The notes under the pieces: model-generated | Told to the model about the DNA's origin: nothing | Database searches by the model: none | Seen by the model: only the letters and a program-made list of their open reading frames with translations | Part shown: positions 12,601 to 43,000 of the stretch, in pieces | Position numbering within the stretch: the first letter of the stretch is position 1 | Layout of the letters: each line of letters starts with the position of its first letter | Position numbers and translations under genes: made by a program | Assembly: GCA_903901045.1 (NCBI GenBank) | Contig: CAIUPP010000021.1 | Coordinates: 168,491-216,095 of the forward strand | Direction: 5' to 3' | Length of the DNA stretch: 47,605 bases | DNA from: an uncultured Planctomycetota bacterium | GTDB taxonomy: Bacteria; Planctomycetota; Brocadiia; CAIUPP01

Positions 12601-12641
12601 CGAAACCTTGCGAAGGTCAAACGATCCTTCGCAAGGTTTCG
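12601..12641 (-). terminator. nested-palindrome terminator, repeat family copy 1
   Basis: A perfect 16-bp stem (12601-12616 with 12626-12641) and 9-nt loop. On the minus strand it is followed by TTTCTTCC. It follows the DegT-like gene. Each arm is itself near-palindromic (AACCTT-GCG-AAGG), and the same motif recurs at 33653 and 42817. Confidence 0.7.
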
Positions 12642-21889: not shown

Positions 21890-22037
21890 AAATGGTTTTG
21901 CTCCGTTGAAACCATCGGGACAGCGTGTCGTTCTTCGCGTGGTCTAGGTGGGGACACAAAACTTTCCTTTGGAAAGTATTGTGTCCCCACCGGCCCGGCC
22001 CGCCAACCGGGATGGTTTCAACAGAGCAAAATGGTTT
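21890..22037 (-). mobile_element. miniature inverted-repeat element, full copy A, with 9-bp target duplication
   Basis: The element is 21899-22028 (130 bp). Ends are TGCTCYGTTGAAACCATC as an 18-bp terminal inverted repeat with one mismatch. It is flanked by a perfect 9-bp direct repeat AAATGGTTT (21890-21898 and 22029-22037). The centre is a long hairpin (about 20-bp arms, TTT loop) beginning GTGGGGACACAA. Its reverse complement aligns end to end with copy B at 27152 at roughly 90% identity. No transposase is encoded. Confidence 0.88.
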
Positions 22038-27142: not shown

Positions 27143-27290
27143 TTACGGAAATGCTCTGTTGAAACCATCCCGGCTGGCAGGCCGGGCCGGTGGGGACACA
27201 ATACTTTCCAAGGGAAAGTTTTGTGTCCCCACCTCGACCACGCGAAGAGCGACACGCAGCCACGATGGTCTCAACAGAGCATTACGGAAA
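27143..27290 (+). mobile_element. miniature inverted-repeat element, full copy B, with 9-bp target duplication
   Basis: The element is 27152-27281 (130 bp), the same length as copy A. The terminal inverted repeat TGCTCTGTTGARACCATC has one mismatch between ends. It is flanked by a perfect 9-bp direct repeat TTACGGAAA (27143-27151 and 27282-27290). The central hairpin has GTGGGGACACAATACTTTCC and its near complement around an AAG loop. It occupies much of the 368-nt gap between the lipoprotein and mgtA genes. Confidence 0.9.
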
Positions 27291-38553: not shown

Positions 38554-38905
38554 TTCACCGCAGAGACGCAGAGGACGCAGAGAACGACGAGACGGGGCAA
38601 CGAGAATGACAGCGAGTTTCACCGCAAAAAGCGCGAAGAACTCGCAGCGAATGACGGGCCGGTGGAGACACAATATTTTCCAAAGGAAAGTTCTGTGTCC
38701 CCACCTCGACCACGGGAAGAATGGCACACTGCCACGATGGTTTCAACAGGGCGAAATAGCTTCTAGCCCATCTTGTTATCTTGTCCCATCGTCTCGTTTC
38801 CGTTACCCCGTCCCGCCGTTCTTTGCGTCTTTGCGTGAGACGCTGTCGCCGTTTCCGGCGTCTTCTTCCCTCCGTACTCCGCGTTCTTCGTGTCTCTGCG
38901 GTGAA
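38554..38905. repeat. 352-bp segment bounded by an inverted repeat, enclosing MITE copy C
   Basis: TTCACCGCAGAGAC (38554-38567) recurs inverted at 38892-38905. The left end continues as CGCAGAGGACGCAGAG direct repeats, and a related TTCACCGCAAAAAGCGCG lies at about 38619. This fills most of the 502-nt gap before the TRIC gene; no CDS is supported there. Confidence 0.6.
38655..38752 (+). mobile_element. miniature inverted-repeat element, degraded copy C
   Basis: It matches copy B from the GGGCCGGTGG block through the hairpin and the right arm, ending GATGGTTTCAACAGGGC. The left terminal repeat is missing. No target duplication can be identified. Confidence 0.75.
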
Positions 38906-40505: not shown

Positions 40506-40621
40506 AGTGCTCTCCTTCAGAAAGAGGATTCCTCCCGGCTGCATCGCCTCCGACTGCAACAGGAAACCAGAATTCCGCGCCCGAGTCAACTCTCGTCGGC
40601 CGCATGTGCAGCGCGCGGAAA

Positions 40622-40666
40622 AGTGGGGACATAAAACTTTCCTCTGGAAAGTATTATGTCCCCACT
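40622..40666 (-). repeat. core-only MITE hairpin, copy D
   Basis: Only the central palindrome is present (21-bp arms, TCT loop, one mismatch). Relative to copies A and B the C-G pair in GACAC/GTGTC is changed to T-A on both arms, a compensatory change. It lies in the 326-nt gap before dnaK. Confidence 0.75.
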
Positions 40667-42816: not shown

Positions 42817-42860
42817 GAACCTTGCGAAGGTTCGTTTAACCTTCGCAAGGTTCTTTTTTC
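42817..42860 (+). terminator. dnaK terminator, nested-palindrome repeat copy 3
   Basis: Perfect 16-bp stem (GAACCTTGCGAAGGTT with its complement), CGTTT loop, then a T6 run. Each arm is itself a palindrome (AACCTT-GCG-AAGGTT and AACCTT-CGC-AAGGTT). Confidence 0.88.
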
Positions 42861-42906
42861 TCATTGCCAATTGGCAAATGCCCATTGCCCATTGATCCGC
42901 CTCTCC

Positions 42907-43000
42907 CATGTGGCACAGCCGCGCTCGGCTGTGCATCCCCGCGCCGCGAGTCGCATGTGGCACAGCCGCCCTCGGCTGTGCAGTCCCGCGCCGCCAGCCG
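42907..43000. repeat. two tandem 47-bp palindromic units
   Basis: Two copies in tandem (42907-42953, 42954-43000), about 89% identical. Each contains GCACAGCCG and CGGCTGTGC arms around a short loop. With the dnaK terminator they fill the 265-nt gap before rsmE. Confidence 0.75.

Follow-up and report, generated by a model that had tools for sequence, protein, structure and literature searches.

A bare REP-like hairpin, probably of a TIRYT/RAYT-type Y1 system, and its relatives inside a MITE

TIRYT loci, or TIRtrons (TIR-associated tyrosine transposases), carry GGGGWSAS repeats and belong with relatives of the RAYTs (Di Nocera et al. 2013, PMC3733652). A survey of TnpA-REP proteins assigns TIRYT mostly to subclass 2.1; for the subclass thought to be TIRYT it reports no REP-like sequences nearby and describes terminal inverted repeats alone (PMC6006769). 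The E. coli TnpA-REP requires a conserved mismatch or bulge in the stem of its substrate (PMC8266576), and REPs elsewhere have been proposed to act as terminators or mRNA stabilisers (PMC3733652). For REPINs, excised copies have been sought in deep sequencing reads (PMC3116915).

We analysed a window of 47,605 nt from an uncultured Planctomycetota bacterium and, within it, a short palindrome called copy D. The hairpin is best described as a variant of the known TIRYT/REP-type repeat, not as MITE debris; what sets it apart is its probable capture by a MITE. As in TIRYT loci, a Y1 gene with an HUH motif and a Tyr lies between inverted repeats, here with a motif close to GGGGWSAS, and such repeats recur at other genomic sites as dimers or clusters. 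In contrast to those loci, the repeat occurs in this genome mainly as a hairpin that has a short loop and keeps a fixed mismatch in its stem, present in about 90 copies and often inside a MITE. Extragenic inverted doublets that fold as hairpins and are linked to a Y1 transposase gene are shared with the REP/REPIN and RAYT systems of E. coli and P. fluorescens, and a conserved stem mismatch with the E. coli REPs. The TIRYT-like Y1 gene is matched to a large set of covarying hairpins, a concrete candidate substrate for a poorly studied branch, and one mobile repeat is carried by a second, unrelated mobile element.

Copy D and the hairpin across the genome

The hairpin pattern matched four times in the window, against 0 expected from shuffles: in copies A and B, in a third copy and in D (Table 1). 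As originally predicted, D consists of the central palindrome only, with no arm, no GGGCCG or CTCGACC shoulder and no terminal repeat. Its core, GTGGGGACATAAAACTTTCC-TCT-GGAAAGTATTATGTCCCCAC, is extended to 45 nt by the pair A40622/T40666. The stem comprises 19 pairs around a 3-nt loop and is interrupted by a single internal mismatch, and as single-stranded DNA the hairpin folds at -18.1 kcal/mol (z = -10). In the single arm of D, a small stem (AAAGT/ACTTT) encloses the GGGACA motif. D lies between the divergent genes for PIG-L and dnaK, upstream of both; a terminator role for D was rejected on this setting and on the missing T tract after the full stem. By position, D has a GTAG beside the hairpin. 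This tetranucleotide, found 5′ of the palindrome in classical RAYT/REP systems, is not conserved beside the other hairpins here, whose feet read GGGCCG, GAAA and others.

Table 1 Hairpin-related features of the window and the arm sequence
Feature	Position	Strand	Description
Copy D, bare REP-like hairpin	40622..40666	- (strand with the T.T mismatch)	43-nt core 40623-40665 plus one closing A-T pair
Single arm of D	40620..40640	+	AAAGT-GGGGACATAAA-ACTTT, as in the flanks of the Y1 transposase gene
Copy A, complete 130-bp MITE	21899..22028	-	hairpin 21948-21990; flanked by the perfect 9-bp target duplication AAATGGTTT
Copy B, complete 130-bp MITE	27152..27281	+	hairpin 27190-27232; flanked by the perfect 9-bp target duplication TTACGGAAA
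Third copy, right-half element	38656..38752	+	GGGCCG shoulder, eroded hairpin 38662-38704 and right arm with terminal repeat; no left arm
Single hairpin arm			AAAGTCGGGACACAATACTTT

Outside the loop, D differs from A at only two positions, and these are partners in the stem. The change from C-G to T-A, by which GACAC/GTGTC becomes GACAT/ATGTC on both arms with pairing kept, is real, as the original prediction had it. By hand calculation, a pair of random stem changes would land on partner positions and complement each other with a probability of about 1/39 x 1/3 = 0.009. D alone is weak evidence, because its changed site varies in other copies too (CG in 35, UG in 4, UA in 1 and other states in 2 of 42 distinct variants). 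The double change in D is one event at a polymorphic site, and the argument rests on the genome-wide data.

In the assembly that contains the window (4.77 Mb in 154 contigs), a covariance model gave roughly 90 places for the hairpin. Merging yielded 93 sites for comparison; both terminal repeats are present in 11 of them, the left one alone in 23, the right one alone in 16 and neither in 43. The predicted excess of core-only over full copies is thus present. The exact consensus core occurs 37 times. Scanning 1.23 Mb of the genome by sequence only, we found that 139 of 160 arms have an inverted partner next to them; the arms lacking one mostly belong to long-spacer doublets. By rough gene calls, 51 of 72 sites are extragenic, compared with about 12% of random positions, and in this the roughly 93 sites resemble classical RAYT/REP systems with their many extragenic palindromic copies linked to a transposase type. 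The extragenic sites are near background proportions in their gene setting (26 tandem, 14 convergent, 11 divergent), and hairpin orientation showed no bias relative to GC skew (p = 1.0 and 0.61). At one site (L122, C23:196480-196702), three tandem hairpins with a spacing of 91 bp carry their own CTGGGG/CCCCAG variant.

Among 58 genomes of relatives searched, including one of the same family, strong matches to the hairpin were confined to its own genome, with one weak match in each of two others; the MITE terminal repeat is likewise essentially confined to this genome. Viral contigs gave 0 exact matches, and a literature search by hairpin sequence returned unrelated papers only.

Covariation, the second expectation of the original prediction, was found in the stem. 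The 42 distinct variants are mutually related rather than independent, and they derive from a copy list built partly by structure-aware search with each copy oriented to its best match; in them, 97.1% of stem cells are paired, and 6 of the 19 stem pairs, in 13 cells, have changed on both sides. None of these values was reached in any of 500 shuffles, and controls with slid pairing remained far below the true pairing. Double changes include G1-C43 to C-G or A-T, G3-C41 to C-G, A7-T37 to C-G and C19-G25 to G-C, and one-sided and G-U states are present as intermediates. Columns 13 and 31 form a T.T mismatch in 83 of the 93 copies; a restored pair (T-A or A-T) occurs in 3 copies only.

A Y1 transposase gene flanked by the arms of the hairpin

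The genome contains six Y1_Tnp matches. One of them (C54:29509-30189) is an intact gene whose product, aligned with homologues, has the HUH motif NHVH and the conserved Tyr, and matches Pfam Y1_Tnp with 28.6 bits (cut-off 23). The gene is flanked by inverted AAAGTCGGGACAYAATACTTT doublets, two upstream and one downstream, with the sequence of the hairpin's arms, and further long-spacer doublets are found nearby and elsewhere in the genome. A RAYT-like Y1 gene, as had been anticipated, is therefore present and is bordered by the arm sequence, although it is the long-spacer and not the short-spacer hairpin doublet that flanks it. The flanks of the remaining five Y1 matches have no such inverted arms. 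At the gene, the arms carry CGGGACAY, which departs from GGGGWSAS at one or two bases, whereas the genomic hairpins read GGGGACAC, which fits.

Among solved structures, the best match of the family profile is the E. coli TnpA-REP (4er8, E 4.6e-10). Against the NCBIfam RAYT model NF047646, the protein scores 62.8 bits (E 3.2e-17) at a cut-off of 80; it is thus related to classical RAYTs and by that test is not a member. A Pfam search up to E 10 gave Y1_Tnp only, and the C-terminus searched alone had no match; with no helix-turn-helix detected, we did not file the protein under TnpA-REP subclass 2.1, which has this domain at its C-terminus (PMC6006769).

The comparison covered 77 homologues, taken from named genomes that span many phyla. 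In 28 of them, GGGGACA motifs pointing inward lie within 220 bp on both sides of the gene, compared with 1 of 77 for the outward control and 0.0 for shuffles; mostly the motif reads GGGGACAC or GGGGACAG. Judged by sequence, the C54 locus and the flanks of the homologues correspond to the published TIRYT loci (PMC3733652). Single arms of the homologues tend to self-pair around GGGACA, with a mean longest stem of 4.59 compared to 3.95 (sd 0.11) with swapped partners. Because they pair better with themselves, the small stem around the motif may be the basic unit.

The hairpin inside a MITE

The larger element is 130 bp long, with 18-bp terminal inverted repeats and 9-bp target duplications; A and B end in TGCTCTGTTGAAACCATC and its inverse, the left end of A being one base off. 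In full elements, the target duplications match on average at 8.0 of 9 positions, compared with 3.5 for shuffled ones. Short, bounded by terminal repeats and a target duplication and containing no gene, it is an ordinary DDE-type MITE. In contrast to other DDE-derived bacterial MITEs, which it otherwise resembles down to core-less relatives with the same ends, its interior is the hairpin of another, Y1-type transposase system. An autonomous parent was not found: the own-genome sequence examined contains no convincing element between paired ends. Plasmids gave no match to the MITE.

Several observations concern the MITE itself. Its terminal repeat lies at many contig ends of the genome (e.g., C21:70-89, C93:148-167, C33:24751-24770), which suggests a longer multi-copy element collapsed in the assembly. 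The same 18-bp ends and 9-bp duplications also bound core-less elements (L016:2315-2506, L082:1248-1518, L356:17444-17722) whose interiors are quite different palindromes, so that one type of MITE end accompanies several interchangeable hairpin cargos. Some elements (L046, L064, L081) are bounded by AAGCTGTTT/AAACAGCTT, which is an inverted rather than a direct repeat and points to a subfamily whose terminal repeat is longer.

The copies with GGGCCG/CTCGACC shoulders (n = 57) are nearly uniform, with a mean pairwise distance of 0.039, whereas the bare copies (n = 24) reach 0.134, 3.5 times as much. To the bare set belongs also D, which the script had binned elsewhere through a chance GGTTTC nearby. 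The A-rich AA foot, as in the transposase arms, is present in 12 of the 24 bare copies and in 0 of the 57 shouldered ones. Because the bare copies are more diverse and half of them keep the transposase-type foot, the hairpin family is probably the older one and the MITE captured its variants, a direction read from these sequence comparisons rather than from a rooted tree. Capture probably happened at least twice, since another variant of the hairpin, GGTTGGGACAC..., sits in a second MITE body that shares these ends (L083, L092, L143, L150, L151, L153, L154).

Truncated copies end at recurrent positions. Of the 23 left-half copies, 13 end at CTCGACC or a single base beyond it; of the 16 right-half copies, 12 have their start inside GGGCCG or no more than three bases ahead of it; and copies consisting of shoulders and hairpin have both fixed ends, GGGCCG|hairpin|CTCGACC. 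Mostly, truncated copies read CTCGACCC where full elements have CTCGACCA. The fixed ends may stem from a Y1 reaction, from replication stalling at the hairpin or from internal deletion. In three elements (L126, L136, L138), the core with its loop and mismatch is inverted relative to the MITE shoulders, as if the spacer between the arms had been flipped.

Possible mechanism, alternatives and other repeats

We consider it likely that D is a genomic copy of the REP-like hairpin of a TIRYT/RAYT-type Y1 system, variants of which were later captured by a DDE-type MITE. The hairpin would consist of two inverted copies of the ~21-nt Y1-flanking arm (AAAGT-CGGGACAYAAT-ACTTT), their usual ~40-nt spacer being shortened to CC-NNN-GG, and would fold when the strand is single, for instance during replication. 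By analogy with the E. coli TnpA-REP (PMC8266576), the GGGACA motif and the fixed stem mismatch are probably what the HUH/Y1 protein recognises on the folded single strand; the protein would cut beside the motif and transfer the hairpin, thereby spreading the bare copies. The DDE-type MITE, with its own terminal repeats and duplications, would have captured variants and amplified one of them, spreading the shouldered copies. More tentatively, two unrelated systems may move the same hairpin, alone as a Y1 single-stranded DNA repeat and as cargo of the MITE, with the foot (GGGCCG | CTCGACCC) serving as an alternative end inside the MITE and giving rise to half elements bounded by a terminal repeat at one side and a fixed hairpin end at the other.

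It appears very unlikely that erosion or truncation of MITEs produced D and the other core-only copies, with the hairpin surviving by chance or through the proneness of palindromes to breakage. There are 39 copies with one terminal repeat only, and some of the shoulder-only copies may well be deletion products; six copies share an internal right-arm deletion that gives CTCGACCCAACAGAGCA or a close form. Yet breakpoints recur at identical bases among the half copies, a pattern that speaks against random erosion; the bare copies differ in their feet and exceed the shouldered ones in core diversity, and the Y1 gene is flanked by the same arms. Rare, randomly eroded core-only copies with mismatched arms, the outcome opposed to the original prediction, did not appear. 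A more serious alternative, though still improbable, explains the double changes by arm-to-arm template switching, a known mutational process at imperfect palindromes, instead of selection on structure or protein recognition. The cores flipped relative to their shoulders indicate that arm-to-arm events occur. Free correction, however, should erase the T.T mismatch, which persists in most copies; one-sided and G-U intermediates occur, and the process would account for the covariation only, not for the association with the transposase.

Marginally less probable than erosion is a role at the RNA level, for example in terminating transcription or stabilising mRNA. The hairpin is very stable and mostly extragenic, and such roles have been proposed for REPs elsewhere, but it has no Rfam match (the search of the window gave one tRNA only), the full stem lacks a following T tract, D is upstream of both its neighbours, and the gene settings of the extragenic sites approximate the background. 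We therefore retain the Y1-system hairpin as the preferred reading. In the original prediction, the core was an independent REP-like unit, carried by the larger element and recognised as single-stranded DNA or RNA. Copy counts, covariation and the Y1-flanking arms bear out the independent unit, and the transposase family makes recognition of single-stranded DNA plausible; recognition as RNA found no support here.

The window holds two further repeats. A dispersed palindrome, AACCTTGCGAAGGT...ACCTTCGCAAGGTT, occurs twice (12604-12638 and 42818-42852). Just downstream of dnaK, at 42897-42990, lie two adjacent 47-bp direct repeats containing GCACAGCCG...CGGCTGTGC.
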